A stretch of DNA of 64,000 nucleotides, taken from Streptomyces sp. NBC_00094 (GTDB lineage: Bacteria; Actinomycetota; Actinomycetes; Streptomycetales; Streptomycetaceae). The notes beneath the pieces were generated by a model that was not told the origin of the DNA, made no database searches, and saw nothing but the letters and a program-made list of their open reading frames with translations. Where the stretch lies: positions 5,151,501-5,215,500 of the forward strand of contig NZ_JAPEMB010000001.1 of NCBI RefSeq assembly GCF_026343125.1, in the 5' to 3' direction. Numbering within the stretch: position 1 is the first letter of the stretch; every line of letters begins with the position of its first letter. Position numbers and translations under genes: made by a program. Shown here one piece after another: positions 1 to 4,733 of this stretch.

Positions 1-2
1 TG

Positions 3-311
3 CTCGCCGCCGTCACCTCGGGTGACGCCGGCGGAGTCGTACCGCAGGTGACCGCGACCCTGACCTCGCTGGTCAACCTGGCCGTCGCCACCGTGCTCGG
101 CAGCGGGCTGCCCGCACCGGACCTGGCCGGCCTGCCCGCGCTCCCGGCGCTCCCGGTCGCCGTGCCGGAGCTGCCCGTCGACCCGCCCGAGCTGCCCGTC
201 GAGCCGCCGGCGCTGCCCGTCGACCCGCCGGCGCTCCCGGTCGACCCGCCCGTGAAGCCGCCCGTCGACGTCCCCGAGCTGCCGGTCAAGCCCCCGCTGC
301 CCGTCAGGTAA
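3..311 (+). CDS. C-terminal part of a Pro/Val-rich, probably exported protein (5' end outside window)
   Basis: The reading frame is open from the left edge, so only about the last 102 codons are present. The visible part begins with an Ala/Val/Gly-rich stretch and ends in a low-complexity tail built on variants of LPVDPPELPVEPP, with a roughly 6-7 residue step. The frame ends in TAA and is followed directly by a strong hairpin terminator. Tails of this kind are common in streptomycete secreted or wall-associated proteins, and the next genes downstream also encode exported proteins, so a surface role is likely. No enzymatic domain is visible. An internal ATG at 48 exists but has no convincing ribosome site. 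Confidence 0.6.
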   Translation, partial: LAAVTSGDAGGVVPQVTATLTSLVNLAVATVLGSGLPAPDLAGLPALPALPVAVPELPVDPPELPVEPPALPVDPPALPVDPPVKPPVDVPELPVKPPLPVR

Positions 312-317
312 TCCCCG

Positions 318-365
318 CGAAGGCCCGCACCGGCCCGGCGTCCGCCGAGTCGGTGCGGGCCTTCG
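318..365 (+). terminator. Intrinsic terminator hairpin
   Basis: A perfect 15-bp inverted repeat (CGAAGGCCCGCACCG at 318-332 and its complement at 351-365) encloses an 18-nt loop. It starts 7 nt after the stop codon of the partial gene. There is no U-tract, which is usual in Streptomyces. Confidence 0.8.
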
Positions 366-537
366 CGCGCGACAAATAGCACCGGTCGACTTCGATCGGG
401 TGCAGTGTCGAGAAATCCTTCCTCCCGGAGTTTCCGGGGAGCGCACTTCTCGTTACAGAAGGCAGAACAACACGCGGGATTCAGCCAAGAACCCTGTGTG
501 GCACGTGACTTGAAAGTTCAGAGGAAGGATTCTCCCC

Positions 538-828
538 ATGAAGTCCACCAAGGTCGCCGCGCTCGTCGCCGGTTCGCTCGTGGCGCTGGGTGCCGCCGCG
601 CCCGCCATGGCCACGGAGGCGCTGACCCCCACCAGTCTGAATGGTGGGCTTGAGGCGATCGCCGCCAATGGACTGAAGACGGACGTCCTGAGCAGCACCA
701 CGGACGGCTCTCCGGTGAAGACCGCCACGGACACCCTGGGGCAGCTCAACGAGGCCGGGAAGGGCGGCTCCGCGCTGCTCGGCGGCCTCCCGGTCGCAGG
801 TCCGGTCGGTAGCCCGCTGGGCGGCTGA
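538..828 (+). CDS. Small secreted protein, function unknown
   Basis: This 96-residue protein starts at an ATG preceded by AGAGGAAGG (about 10 nt upstream). Residues 1-25 form a classical signal peptide: Lys at positions 2 and 5, an Ala/Val/Leu core and an APAMA cleavage motif. The mature part, about 70 residues, is small, Gly/Thr/Leu-rich and has no cysteine, so it is not a chaplin. It lies in a run of exported-protein genes leading to a chaplin and is followed by a short GC hairpin. I do not recognise the family. A role in the hyphal surface is inferred from context only. Confidence 0.75.
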   Translation: MKSTKVAALVAGSLVALGAAAPAMATEALTPTSLNGGLEAIAANGLKTDVLSSTTDGSPVKTATDTLGQLNEAGKGGSALLGGLPVAGPVGSPLGG

Positions 829-857
829 TCGAATGATTTTCTGATCGGCCGCCGTGT

Positions 858-879
858 GGCCCCCGCTCGACGCGGGGCC
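858..879 (+). terminator. Short GC hairpin after the small secreted protein gene
   Basis: GGCCCC (858-863) pairs with GGGGCC (874-879) about 30 nt after the stop codon. The stem is short, so termination is plausible but not certain. Confidence 0.4.
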
Positions 880-987
880 TCGCTCCCTACTCTCTGGTCC
901 ATCCCACGCGAACGTCGGCGTGGACTGGCCGGTCGGAGCGAGGGGGGATCCTCGCCGGTCTCTCCCTTTCTCCAGAGGAAGAGCGGT

Positions 988-2046
988 ATGCGGTCCATCA
1001 TCAGCAGGAAAGTACTCACCGCAGCAGCAGCGACCGGCATTCTGTCGCTGACCGGCGGATTCGCCATTGCCGCCAACTCCCATGCCGGTACGGGTGATTC
1101 ACCCGGTCCCGGTGCGGCAGGTCATGTGCAGGCGCCCCTGCCGGCCGATGTCTGCGGCAAGAGCATGGAACTCGGCGATCTCGTCGCGGCGGCCGTCGGC
1201 GACCTCTGCGCCCAGGCGGGGGAACCCGGCGGCTACGGCGACGAGCCGGGCGAGCCGACCGAGCCCCCGACGAATCCGCCGCACACCGAGCCGCCGACGA
1301 CACCGCCGCATACAGAGCCGCCGACGACGCCGCCGCATACAGAGCCGCCCACCACTCCGCCGCACACCACCCCTCCGCCGACCAACCCGGACGAGCCCGG
1401 TGAGTGCGAGGCCCCCGCCCCCGGTGAGGAGCCGGAGCCGGGTTGTGAGGAGCCGACGACTCCGCCGACCACTCCGCCGACGTCCCCGCCGTGGACGCCT
1501 CCGACCAACCCGGATGAGCCCGGTGAGTGCGAGGCCCCCGCCCCGGGCGAGGAGCCGGAGCCCGGTTGTGAGGAGCCGACCACTCCGCCGACTTCCCCGC
1601 CGCACACCACCCCTCCGCCGACCAACCCGGACGAGCCGGGTGAGTGCGAGGCCCCCGCTCCCGGTGAGGAGCCGGAGCCCGGTTGTGAGGAGCCGACCAC
1701 TCCGCCGACGACTCCGCCCACCACTCCGCCGACGTCCCCGCCGTGGACGCCGCCGACCAACCCGGACGAGCCCGGTGAGTGCGAGGAGCCCGCCCCGGGT
1801 GAGGAGCCGGAGCCCGGTTGCGAGGAGCCGACCACTCCGCCGACCACTCCGCCCACCTCCCCGCCGTGGACGCCTCCGACCAACCCGGACGAGCCGAGCA
1901 ACCCGACCACCCCGCCGGGCGGCCCCGAACTCCCCGACACCGGCAGCGACCCCGCGCTCATGGGCGCGGCCGCGATCAGCGCCGCGCTGATCATCGGCGG
2001 CACCGTCGTCTACCTCCGAGGCGGACGGATCTCCCGCCGTCACTGA
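988..2046 (+). CDS. LPXTG wall-anchored protein with chaplin-like N-terminal domain and Pro/Thr repeat stalk
   Basis: The ATG at 988 follows AGAGGAAGAG and gives 352 residues. Domains in order: signal peptide (about 1-31, ending IAANSHA); a short globular part (about 32-75) with two cysteines 17 residues apart (CGKSMELGDLVAAAVGDLC), the same spacing and a similar pattern to the chaplin core CGNTVSVIGLLNPAFGNTC; a stalk of about 230 residues made of Pro/Thr-rich repeats containing NPDEPGECE and GEEPEPGCEEP; then a sorting signal, LPDTG, a hydrophobic segment and a basic tail (RGGRISRRH). Sortase anchoring to peptidoglycan is therefore expected. Long chaplins (ChpA-C) carry two chaplin domains and a sorting signal; this protein has one very divergent domain and an unusually long stalk. 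Paired cysteines recur in each repeat. Confidence 0.85.
   Translation: MRSIISRKVLTAAAATGILSLTGGFAIAANSHAGTGDSPGPGAAGHVQAPLPADVCGKSMELGDLVAAAVGDLCAQAGEPGGYGDEPGEPTEPPTNPPHTEPPTTPPHTEPPTTPPHTEPPTTPPHTTPPPTNPDEPGECEAPAPGEEPEPGCEEPTTPPTTPPTSPPWTPPTNPDEPGECEAPAPGEEPEPGCEEPTTPPTSPPHTTPPPTNPDEPGECEAPAPGEEPEPGCEEPTTPPTTPPTTPPTSPPWTPPTNPDEPGECEEPAPGEEPEPGCEEPTTPPTTPPTSPPWTPPTNPDEPSNPTTPPGGPELPDTGSDPALMGAAAISAALIIGGTVVYLRGGRISRRH
1381..1910 (+). repeat. Imperfect long tandem repeats coding for the wall-spanning stalk
   Basis: The string ACCAACCCGGA (or a one-base variant) recurs at 1381, 1504, 1621, 1756 and 1879. The unit lengths are therefore 123, 117, 135 and 123 bp, all multiples of three. Units differ mainly in the number of CCGACCACT (Pro-Thr-Thr) triplets, which suggests in-frame expansion and contraction of the stalk. 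Confidence 0.85.
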
Positions 2047-2164
2047 CGCCACAGGCTGACGGAACGTCAATCAAGGCCCCCGCCTTCACCGGTGGGGGCC
2101 TCCGACGTTGCTGCACACAGGGGAATTCCGCCACGTTTCCCCCGAACGCCTCGTTCTCCAGAGC

Positions 2165-2677
2165 ATGACTCTGCGCTCTCACGCCGGCATGGGAATCCTC
2201 ATGACCGCACTCGCCTCCGCCGCCCTGGCCGCCCCGGCCTCCGCCGTCGAGGCACCGGTGATCGTCCCGCTCCAGGGCCTGGAGCCGGTGCTCCCGATGG
2301 ACGCCCCGACGGTGGCCACCGGTGTGCCCGTCCCGATGCCCGGCGCACCCACCGGCTTCCAGAAGGGCCTCGGTGCCCTGCCGGATGTCACCCTGCCCAG
2401 CGTGCCGCTCGCCGGCACCCTGCCGAAGACCGTCGTGGACGCGCCGCTGCCCGAGCTCCTGGACGGCAGCGACCCCGGCCGGGCCCTCCTCAGCAGCCCG
2501 CACTCGGAGATGAGGGCGGCCACGCCCGGCGCCGTCGTCGGCAACCCGGTGGAGGCCCCGCGCGGGAACGGACTCGCCGGCCTCCCGGACCTGGCGAAGC
2601 CTCAGGTCGGCCTCCTCACCCCCGTACTCAGCGGAGCCCTCGACCCCCAGCTGGGCCTGGCGCCGACCTCGCACTGA
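2165..2677 (+). CDS. Secreted protein, Pro/Leu/Val-rich, function unknown
   Basis: The ATG at 2165 gives 170 residues with a signal peptide (MTLRSHAGMGILMTALASAA and onward, ending APASA at about residue 27). A second ATG at 2189 would give a shorter signal peptide and cannot be excluded, since neither start has a strong ribosome site. The mature chain has no cysteine and is rich in short LP, VP and GLP motifs, like the tail of the partial gene at the left edge, so the two may belong to one family of surface proteins. It is followed by a strong hairpin and then by the chaplin gene. No catalytic motif is visible. Confidence 0.7.
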   Translation: MTLRSHAGMGILMTALASAALAAPASAVEAPVIVPLQGLEPVLPMDAPTVATGVPVPMPGAPTGFQKGLGALPDVTLPSVPLAGTLPKTVVDAPLPELLDGSDPGRALLSSPHSEMRAATPGAVVGNPVEAPRGNGLAGLPDLAKPQVGLLTPVLSGALDPQLGLAPTSH

Positions 2678-2772
2678 CGCGACCGCGCACCCCGGGCGGG
2701 TGAAGACACGATTCTTCCCCGCCACCCCGGGGATCGTTGATCGTTATAGGCGAAGGCTCGTCGCATGGCCGC

Positions 2773-2846
2773 GGCCCGTGGACCGAGGCCCGTCCCGCCG
2801 TAACCGGCGGCGGGCGTCCTCCGGTCCACGGGCCATTCTTTTCGGA
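2773..2846 (+). terminator. Intrinsic terminator with T-rich tail
   Basis: GGCCCGTGGACCG (2773-2785) pairs perfectly with 2822-2834. The stem is followed by ATTCTTTTCGG and further T-rich sequence. It separates the unknown secreted protein gene from the chaplin gene. Confidence 0.8.
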
Positions 2847-2965
2847 TCTTTTCGGTTTTTCCCCGTCTCGTTCGGCTCAATGACCGTGACCAGCTCCGTT
2901 GACGGGCGTTGTAGGGGAGTCGGCCGTGATTCCTGCGGTCGCTTTCCACGTCCAAGGAGTTCTTG

Positions 2966-3253
2966 ATGTCTCGCATCGCGAAGGCTGCCGCTGTTCTCGC
3001 CGGCACGGGTGCCGTGGCCCTCAGCGGAGCCGGCCTGGCCGTCGCCGACTCGGGCGCCGAGGCCGTCGCCGCCCACTCGCCCGGTGTCGCCTCCGGCAAC
3101 GTCGTCCAGGTCCCGGTCCACGTCCCGGTCAACCTCTGCGGCAACACCGTCAGCGTCATCGGCCTGCTCAACCCGGCCTTCGGCAACACCTGCGTCAACG
3201 CCGACGGTCACGACAACGGTCACGACAACGGTGACGGCGGCTACGGCGGCTGA
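2966..3253 (+). CDS. chpG: Short chaplin, ChpG-like
   Basis: This 95-residue protein starts at the ATG at 2966 (a TTG one codon earlier is less likely), with AAGGAG 7-8 nt upstream. Residues 1-28 are a signal peptide ending GLAVADS. The mature part is one chaplin domain: SPGVASGNVVQVPVHVPVNL, then two cysteines bracketing GNTVSVIGLLNPAFGNT. The tail is Asp/His/Asn-rich and ends DGGYGG. Short chaplins are secreted amyloid-forming coat proteins that lower surface tension and let aerial hyphae emerge. The neighbouring melC2/melC1 operon matches, from memory, the chpG-melC2-melC1 order of S. coelicolor, which supports the ChpG assignment. The acidic tail (NADGHDNGHDNGDGGYGG) replaces the usual Asp-Lys tail. 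Confidence 0.93.
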   Translation: MSRIAKAAAVLAGTGAVALSGAGLAVADSGAEAVAAHSPGVASGNVVQVPVHVPVNLCGNTVSVIGLLNPAFGNTCVNADGHDNGHDNGDGGYGG

Positions 3254-3270
3254 TCCCCCTCCGTTTCGCT

Positions 3271-3309
3271 CGGGTGTCCCCCCGGCCCGCCAGGCCGGGG
3301 GGACACCCG
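3271..3309. terminator. Bidirectional terminator between chaplin and tyrosinase genes
   Basis: A perfect 17-bp stem (CGGGTGTCCCCCCGGCC at 3271-3287 and its complement at 3293-3309) has a 5-nt loop. It lies 17 nt after the chaplin stop and 12 nt after the melC2 stop, so it serves both convergent genes. Confidence 0.85.
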
Positions 3310-3320
3310 TCTGTGCGGGG

Positions 3321-4187
3321 TCAGGCGTACCGGTAGATCCGGCTGTGGTCGAACAGCTCCGCCGGGGTGACCCCCCACGGCTCCATCGGCTGGTGCCGGG
3401 CGACGACCTTGCGGTACTGCGCGTCCCCGAGCGGCGGCGGCTCCGCCGGCAGGTACGCGGCACCGGGGTTGCGCTGCTGCCACCGCGACCAGACCAGGTC
3501 GACGAAGGAGTGGTGCAGCCAGAAGACCGGGTCGTTGACGGAGCCGCCGCCGAGCATCAGCCCGCCGACCCAGCGGTGGACCCGGTTGTGGATCCGGAAC
3601 CTCTCGTTGCCCCGGCCCGGGGCCCAGCCCTCCAGCCGGTTGCGGAAGCCGGAGACGCTCGTGGAGTTCCAGGGCGCCACGTCGTACACCCGCTCCCGCA
3701 TCACCTCGTCCAGCTGGGCCTGGGTGGGGAGCGCGATCGGGTCGCGAGGCCGGCCGAAGTCCCTGGTCAGGAAGCGGGTCTCGGTCATCCCGTACGTGAC
3801 GTTCCACCGCCCGGCGGAGTGGGCGAAGGGGCCGGTCATGACCTGGAGGTCGGCGCGGCGCCCGTTGCCGCCCAGGAAGTCCTCGCCCCAGATCGAGGAG
3901 GCCGGACTGTTGTCCCGGGTCCAGTCCCAGTACGGGACGGAGACCGTCGGATCGAGCCGGCGCAGCGCCTTCTCGAACTCCAGCAGGAACCTGCGGTGCC
4001 AGGGCAGGAAGCTCGGGGCCATGTGGGCCGTCCTGAGCCGCCCCTCCCCGTCGGCCGTGTAGTGGTCGATGTGGGTGCGGACGAACTCGTCGTACGCGCC
4101 GGTCCGCTTGAGCTCCAGGACGGCGGCGACGAACTTCCGGCGCTCGGCGCCGGTCAGGTCGCGCTGGTTCTTACGCGTGTACACCAC
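3321..4187 (-). CDS. melC2: Tyrosinase (melanin-forming, type-3 copper enzyme)
   Basis: This 288-residue protein oxidises monophenols and diphenols to o-quinones, giving melanin. All six copper ligands are visible: CuA H39, H55 (in RTAHMAPSFL) and H64 (LPWHRRFLLEFE); CuB H200 and H204 (IHNRVH) and H226 (FWLHHS). The length is slightly above the usual 270-275. There is no signal peptide, as expected for an enzyme exported with its MelC1 partner. The start is the GTG at 4187 (a second GTG follows at once), with GGGAGGGAG upstream. It overlaps melC1 by 17 bp, so the two are translationally coupled. The sequence differs enough from common MelC2 that it could belong to the second streptomycete tyrosinase lineage (MelD2). 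Confidence 0.95.
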   Translation of the reverse strand: MVYTRKNQRDLTGAERRKFVAAVLELKRTGAYDEFVRTHIDHYTADGEGRLRTAHMAPSFLPWHRRFLLEFEKALRRLDPTVSVPYWDWTRDNSPASSIWGEDFLGGNGRRADLQVMTGPFAHSAGRWNVTYGMTETRFLTRDFGRPRDPIALPTQAQLDEVMRERVYDVAPWNSTSVSGFRNRLEGWAPGRGNERFRIHNRVHRWVGGLMLGGGSVNDPVFWLHHSFVDLVWSRWQQRNPGAAYLPAEPPPLGDAQYRKVVARHQPMEPWGVTPAELFDHSRIYRYA

Positions 4188-4584
4188 GCGGGCTCCCTCC
4201 CGTCGGGTCGGTGTGGACGCCGTGGGCCGCGGCGAGCCGGGACAGCGGCGCCGCCCCCAGCTCGTCGACGGCGGCGCGGGTGGCCGCCAGCGGCGTCGGG
4301 CAGGACTCGTAGTGGTCGATCGGCGATACGTAGCCGCCGTCGGCGCACCGCATCAGGTGCAGCGGCCGGCCGTCGACGAGGGCCACCGGGGCGCCGTCGG
4401 GGCCGGAGAGGCCCCGGATGCGGCGGCCCCCGTACATCTCGTCGAAGGCGAGCGGGTCGCGCGCCGTCCCGGACGGCTCTCCCGGCGGGGTGCGGGTCGC
4501 GATGCGGCCGAGCGCACCGCCGGTGAAGGCGGTGACGGCCAGAGCGAAGAGGGACCGCAGTGCGACGCGGCGCGGGACGATCAT
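4171..4584 (-). CDS. melC1: Tyrosinase cofactor / copper-transfer and export chaperone
   Basis: This 137-residue protein delivers copper to apo-tyrosinase and carries it out of the cell. The ATG at 4584 follows AGGAG at good spacing, so the longer upstream frame is not used. The N-terminus has twin arginines followed by a hydrophobic stretch (VPRRVALRSLFALAVTAF), consistent with Tat export of the MelC1-MelC2 complex. The conserved core FDEMYGGRRIRG ... LVDGRPLHLMRCADGGYVSPIDHYESCPTPLAATRAAVDELG is typical of MelC1, with His and Cys residues that can bind copper. It is the first gene of the melC operon and overlaps melC2. Confidence 0.93.
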   Translation of the reverse strand: MIVPRRVALRSLFALAVTAFTGGALGRIATRTPPGEPSGTARDPLAFDEMYGGRRIRGLSGPDGAPVALVDGRPLHLMRCADGGYVSPIDHYESCPTPLAATRAAVDELGAAPLSRLAAAHGVHTDPTGGSPRGVHA

Positions 4585-4733
4585 GAGTGATCTCCTCGGG
4601 TCGGCAATTGCCCTCAGGGCACAACGATGAAAACCCGGGTTCGTTGCGCCGGAAATGCCGGAGGCGTGAATATCGACCGTTCGGGTGAAATTGGCGCGGG
4701 GAAAGGGTGGTTGGGCCACTAGCATCCGTATTC

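Follow-up and report, generated by a model that had tools for sequence, protein, structure and literature searches.

A wall-anchored, chaplin-derived protein on a repetitive stalk in a conserved chaplin-tyrosinase island of one Streptomyces clade

Results

The window analyzed here is a stretch of 64,000 nucleotides from Streptomyces sp. NBC_00094, near the start of which positions 988-2046 of the forward strand encode a secreted protein of 352 amino acids. Its translation begins with a signal peptide of the long-chaplin kind (988-1074, residues 1-29) that resembles leaders such as that of locus L026 and shows a mean pairwise identity of 0.91 over 30 orthologues; the cleavage site at residue 29 is putative. 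What we refer to as the head follows (1099-1209, residues 38-74), containing Cys56 and Cys74, which flank the 17 residues GKSMELGDLVAAAVGDL, with SPGPGAAGHVQAPLPADVC preceding. Straight after the head lies a conserved Tyr-Gly element, GYGD (1231-1242, including Tyr83), and then a repetitive Pro/Thr/Glu-rich stalk with four Cys pairs (1243-1929, residues 86-314), built of in-frame tandem repeats of 12, 24 or 27 nt and of 117-135 nt. The sorting signal that ends the protein (1930-2043, residues 315-352) can be read directly as LPDTG at residues 315-319, a hydrophobic segment and a basic tail, RRH. A preliminary description of this DNA had noted the 17-residue Cys spacing, a chaplin with equal spacing 920 bp downstream (2966-3253, 17 residues) and a Pro/Thr/Cys-rich stalk of ∼230 residues with LPDTG, and on each of these points it was correct, the repeats being of Pro/Thr/Glu/Cys. 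The wall anchoring that it had proposed is also upheld insofar as all three parts of the signal are present, with LPXTG models matching the protein weakly, under cut-off; judged by its sequence, the product carries a wall-anchoring signal.

An artefactual reading frame was rejected, as 34 orthologue loci have the gene in the same place, and so was a longer frame from a GTG start at 856, since 1-nt indels break the leader in orthologues. This 62-nt leader, which lies just 5' of the start codon on the forward strand (926-987) and includes the ribosome-binding region, is near invariant across orthologues, head-less ones too, and because of the same indels in some copies it is not coding. Its 22-nt core has one exact copy genome-wide, the next best match having 3 mismatches. 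An inverted repeat, GCGAGG-GGGGAT-CCTCGC, lies within the leader. A known RNA element was rejected, since positions 1-4200 gave nothing above the Rfam gathering threshold, as was an unusual RNA fold (z -0.67).

The gene is flanked upstream by P4, a small secreted protein (538-828, forward strand) present at 34/34 orthologue loci, and downstream by P3, also secreted (2165-2677, forward strand) and present at 28 of the 30 loci with downstream flank; no Pfam match to either was found, and relatives of P3 occur in 147/392 Streptomyces genomes. Farther downstream are a ChpG-type short chaplin (2966-3253, forward strand, 98.1 bits on ChpA-C) ending in GGYGG, a MelC2-like tyrosinase on the reverse strand (3321-4187, PF00264, E 7.6e-44), whose gene ends 67 bp beyond that of the chaplin, and a MelC1-like tyrosinase cofactor, again on the reverse strand (4171-4725, PF06236, E 7.9e-25). 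Against the NCBIfam MelC2 equivalog, which has a cut-off of 450 bits, the tyrosinase reaches 348, so that the chaplin-linked enzyme may belong to a separate subgroup. The conserved order is chaplin - ORF48 - P4 - 988-2046 gene - P3 - chpG - melC2 - melC1, with chpG and melC2 found at 30/30 orthologue loci that have enough downstream flank. The preliminary description had suggested a survey of co-occurrence with chpG and sortases. The genome itself has chaplins and sortases (nine canonical chaplin domains in seven ORFs, 11 sortase matches), but co-occurrence with chaplins, though real, is uninformative, because nearly all Streptomyces have chaplins (148/150 at E<=1e-15).

In order to place the head we rely on profile comparisons. 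Pfam ChpA-C (PF03777) is the sole Pfam family matching the trimmed head, and relative to its gathering cut-off of 21 bits two tight trims score 21.9 (E 1.5e-4) and 21.8 (E 1.6e-4), a third trim 20.2 (E 5.4e-4), the whole protein 16.9, and the head in a genome scan 20.4 (21 with neighbours). The same family matches 19/30 orthologous heads at E<=1, the best at 1e-8, and at that threshold was not found in the other 11/30. A profile of 30 orthologous heads aligns with 18 canonical chaplin domains at an hhalign probability of 94.3% (E 1e-7), the local score of 35.7 lying above the maxima from 150 column shuffles each with all columns permuted (9.8), with Cys fixed (9.1) or with Cys and conserved Gly fixed (21.2). 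When the N-terminal 99 residues were used as query, matches were obtained in 149/150 Streptomyces genomes, and the 30 best-match loci inspected comprise 6 with this protein or close relatives and 24 others, all long chaplins, one of which (L021) runs off its contig. The reverse search of the genome itself with a profile of 22 heads (A1) is a weak result, its only chaplin match besides the protein itself being a single domain from a long chaplin that has two (E 0.0039), with the remaining canonical chaplin domains absent at E<=10. The divergent chaplin-type domain claimed at the outset is thus borne out as homology by Pfam, hhalign and the shuffle controls, and in the profile comparison with canonical domains the heads scored above the column-shuffle background. 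On sequence grounds, head and canonical chaplin domains share descent and have strongly diverged.

Chaplin domains are defined by GN motifs, a Cys pair and hydrophobicity, according to the available part of PMC13251363. The head has the two cysteines at the chaplin spacing and keeps the three chaplin Gly positions, the next residues being His, Lys and Asp (GH, GK, GD), and none of the three defining GN motifs is present in it; one orthologue, L046, retains GN near the first position. Its Val-rich stretch, from first Gly to first Cys, lacks 3 residues relative to that of ChpG, which also alters the first GN-to-GN spacing. Nor is the head a hydrophobic, near-uncharged and aggregation-prone domain: it holds 5 charged residues as compared with 0-1 in seven chaplin domains of the same genome, and on an aggregation scale it scores -3 versus +8 to +27 for those seven, with low scores also in other long chaplins (L024 -11, L023 -12). 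Two traits of long chaplins are likewise missing, the genome scan giving a single divergent match where these have two N-terminal chaplin domains, and LPDTG standing in place of the class E signal LAXTG. Despite its chaplin descent, the protein therefore falls outside the definition of a chaplin.

Structure prediction for the head and for a canonical chaplin, which the preliminary description had also proposed, gave models too weak for their folds to be compared. AlphaFold2 gives the head as a weak helical hairpin, two helices with pLDDT ∼77 there and 65 overall, and short chaplins are described as having very low helix propensity in the part of PMC3079736 available; the canonical chaplin model reaches a pLDDT of only 44.5.

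A scan of named genomes yielded 34 orthologue loci (L044-L077), forming one orthologue group in one Streptomyces clade whose members include S. narbonensis, S. zaomyceticus, S. wedmorensis, S. exfoliatus and S. litmocidini; as these loci were found with peptide patterns from the 988-2046 protein, identity within those patterns is inflated. A record titled Microtetraspora glauca (L074, JOFO01000053.1) bears the Streptomyces island, and its name is probably wrong. Whole proteins range from 171 to 380 aa, with stalk length and repeat type varying strongly; two loci (L059, L076) are frameshifted and four run off contigs. LPxTG is found in 28/30 complete orthologues, the other two being frameshifted, and the Cys count of every intact complete orthologue is even (0-14), with the stalk Cys in pairs, which fits paired disulphides. 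The head cysteines are mostly 17 residues apart, with a spacing of 16 in five orthologues (L062, L063, L064, L067, L069), 14 in L072 and 12 in L059; in two of the 34 (L073 and L077) neither the head nor any Cys is left, the rest being kept. Outside the island, a relative in G149 (L019, L082) is without stalk and anchor and is apparently frame-broken.

Mean pairwise identity over 30 sequences (L059, L061, L070, L072, L075 and L076 being left out of 36 rows) is 0.91 (signal peptide), 0.55 (head) and 0.77 (anchor), and the corresponding dN/dS values, from 28/36 sequences and 340 of 378 pairs, are 0.21, 0.45 and 0.29. All lie below 1 and so indicate purifying selection, relaxed in the head but not absent from it. 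Both cysteines occur in 30/30 rows of the head alignment A3, from which the six of 36 rows with no intact head were omitted (L059, L072, L073, L075, L076, L077), and AVGDLC is near invariant where a head exists. GYG is present in 34/35 orthologue readings (36 less L075), including the two head-less copies, the exception being the frameshifted L076. From these comparisons the head evolves fast under constraint, and the stalk is free in length and repeat type.

As to where the gene came from, 29 P3 loci from outside the window were examined and 24 of them carry it, namely all 20 in which the P3 match is at least 82% and 4 others (68-74%). In 7/7 examined relatives that do not have it, P4 lies next to P3, with a gap of ∼180-350 bp. 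Gene order indicates that it was inserted between P4 and P3 in one Streptomyces clade. Four genomes with a gene order like that of S. coelicolor (reference order in the available part of PMC3293853) have chpD and a long ChpA-type gene ∼14-20 kb away, and of the four ChpA-type proteins at those loci three are single-domain proteins with a repetitive stalk and either LPHTG or LSHTG. Among 23 readable long chaplins LAxTG occurs in 20, and the three with LPxTG or LSxTG are all chpA-locus proteins; the G013 protein in the tree also has LPHTG. The tree joins the orthologue clade to the chpA-locus proteins (branch supports 100/100 and 88/84), a link that could be a long-branch effect given ∼119 columns and a long branch (0.81). 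The genome itself has a chpD-like gene with no long chaplin beside it. The simplest origin, and one that we somewhat favor, would be a ChpA-type long chaplin that relocated and lost one domain; loss together with a new gain is an alternative that would also be compatible with these data.

The C-terminus of the neighboring chaplin led to a second pattern. Among 172 distinct short chaplins, Tyr falls within the last four residues in 97/98 of those within 1.5 kb of melC2 and in 0/74 of the others. As the query of this chaplin search contained the tag KGYG, a census centered on melC2 was carried out to reduce that bias. It covered the best class of melC2-like loci (E down to 4.5e-109), 103 of them across 150 genomes. 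A short chaplin lies within 1.5 kb at 79 of the 103, no tagged one being farther off than 291 bp, and none was found in the examined stretch at the remaining 24. The tag, mostly GYGx, is present in 77/79 of these chaplins; the two untagged ones have Tyr fifth from the end (GDYGHGR) or no Tyr (CVNK). The stretch from domain to C-terminus in tagged chaplins runs from 8 to 106 residues, with the tag kept and the rest of the tail variable. One melC2-adjacent chaplin (L206, G026:C6:225000-231000) has a Lys/Asp-rich tail of ∼105 residues and still ends in GYGH. Most of the chaplins concerned belong to a single orthologue group, which means that these counts are not independent events. Asp and Gly in the ChpG tail have been noted in PMC3079736, and the word tyrosine is absent from the part of that paper available; a literature search by title or abstract start found no link of chaplins or ChpG to tyrosinase, melC, melanin or cross-linking.

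Discussion

That the product of 988-2046 is a wall-anchored protein derived from a chaplin can be held with considerable confidence, and we think it probable that it is a stalked wall protein that no longer works as a chaplin. It resembles the long chaplins ChpA-C of Streptomyces coelicolor (PF03777), ChpA in particular, in having a signal peptide, an N-terminal domain with a Cys pair, a linker and a sortase signal, but differs in its one domain rather than two, its charged head with no GN motifs, its LPxTG in place of LAxTG, its long repetitive stalk and its gene position. The preliminary description knew of no single divergent domain on such a stalk with LPDTG that had been described as a chaplin. 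The architecture is not unique, as 6/24 inspected non-orthologous long chaplins, classified by reading, likewise have one domain. These proteins (L023, L024, L029, L031, L037, L043), as well as that of G013, have one domain, mostly a repetitive stalk, and a sortase signal; most differ in keeping GN motifs and a canonical domain, with L023, which is also degenerate, being nearest in kind. No single-domain or degenerate sortase-anchored chaplin was found in the literature by title or abstract start, which is weak evidence of novelty as most subscription journals lay outside the scope of the search. Outside Streptomyces, SspA of Actinoplanes missouriensis similarly depends on sortase for its place in the wall, and disorder is predicted for its mature part, but it is shorter, belongs to a different genus and has no chaplin-derived head described in the available part of PMC13293333. 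CwpA and CwpB of the same organism are SrtE-dependent wall proteins that have been compared with long chaplins, and CwpB likewise has two Cys without surrounding GN motifs; there the authors concluded that chaplin domains are absent (PMC13251363, available part), whereas for the present head there is profile evidence for descent.

How might such a protein work? A sortase would attach it to the peptidoglycan, class E sortases favoring LAXTG according to the part of PMC5148588 available, and the stalk would extend, to very roughly 70 nm when fully stretched, and take the head and the tyrosine past the wall, where the small head may be closed by a disulphide. The protein could then tether the chaplin layer to the wall or act as a spacer between the two, a role that we put forward tentatively.

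Other readings must be weighed against this. The preliminary description had suggested display of an amyloid seed, in which the head, at the end of its stalk, would still be chaplin-like enough to start short-chaplin fibres or to become part of them. Its homology to chaplin domains, the Cys pair kept in most orthologues, the presence of chpG and another chaplin gene nearby in the conserved island and one remaining aggregation-prone 10-residue stretch, LGDLVAAAVG, all speak in its favor, but the GN motifs are gone, the head carries five charges and has a low aggregation score (-3), the prediction is helical and the head is dispensable in 2/34 orthologues (L073 and L077). The claim is thus unsupported; nucleation of amyloid by the head is unlikely, and the reading as a whole strikes us as quite improbable. 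Conversely, the head might be a vestige, the working part being the anchored stalk alone, disordered and hydrophilic in the manner of SspA, which affects sporangium strength according to the available part of PMC13293333. Loss or shortening of the head in L059, L072, L073 and L077 would fit, as would its being the fastest-evolving conserved segment and the retention of stalk and anchor in all intact copies; against this, existing heads show hardly any variation in the Cys pair (30/30 A3 rows) and in AVGDLC, and the head's dN/dS of 0.45 is below 1, so that on balance we regard a pure remnant as doubtful.

Finally, the secreted tyrosinase beside chpG might act on tyrosine, the GYG of this clade's stalk protein and the Tyr-Gly tags of the chaplins serving as acceptors, such that the chaplin coat would be cross-linked or melanized and stitched, or melanin joined, to the wall. 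Conservation of GYG in 34/35 orthologues, even when the head is lost, and the distribution of the tag (77/79 melC2-adjacent short chaplins, 0/74 distinct non-adjacent ones) are what one might expect, and it is possible, going by these patterns, that the C-terminal Tyr is a substrate tag for tyrosinase. Yet YG is found also in 13/26 long chaplins, none of which is near melC2, and the stalk protein is missing from most tagged chpG-melC loci. The full scheme is, in our estimation, unlikely.

The decay of a chaplin domain across one clade, up to its loss in two copies, with anchor and leader remaining fixed, amounts to a natural experiment on the purpose of wall anchoring. Were the tyrosine scheme true, bacterial tyrosinases adjacent to chaplins would gain a structural role beyond pigment, namely hardening of the coat, comparable to what is seen in insect cuticle and mussel glue, and the frequent neighborhood of chpG and melC2-like genes would be explained.
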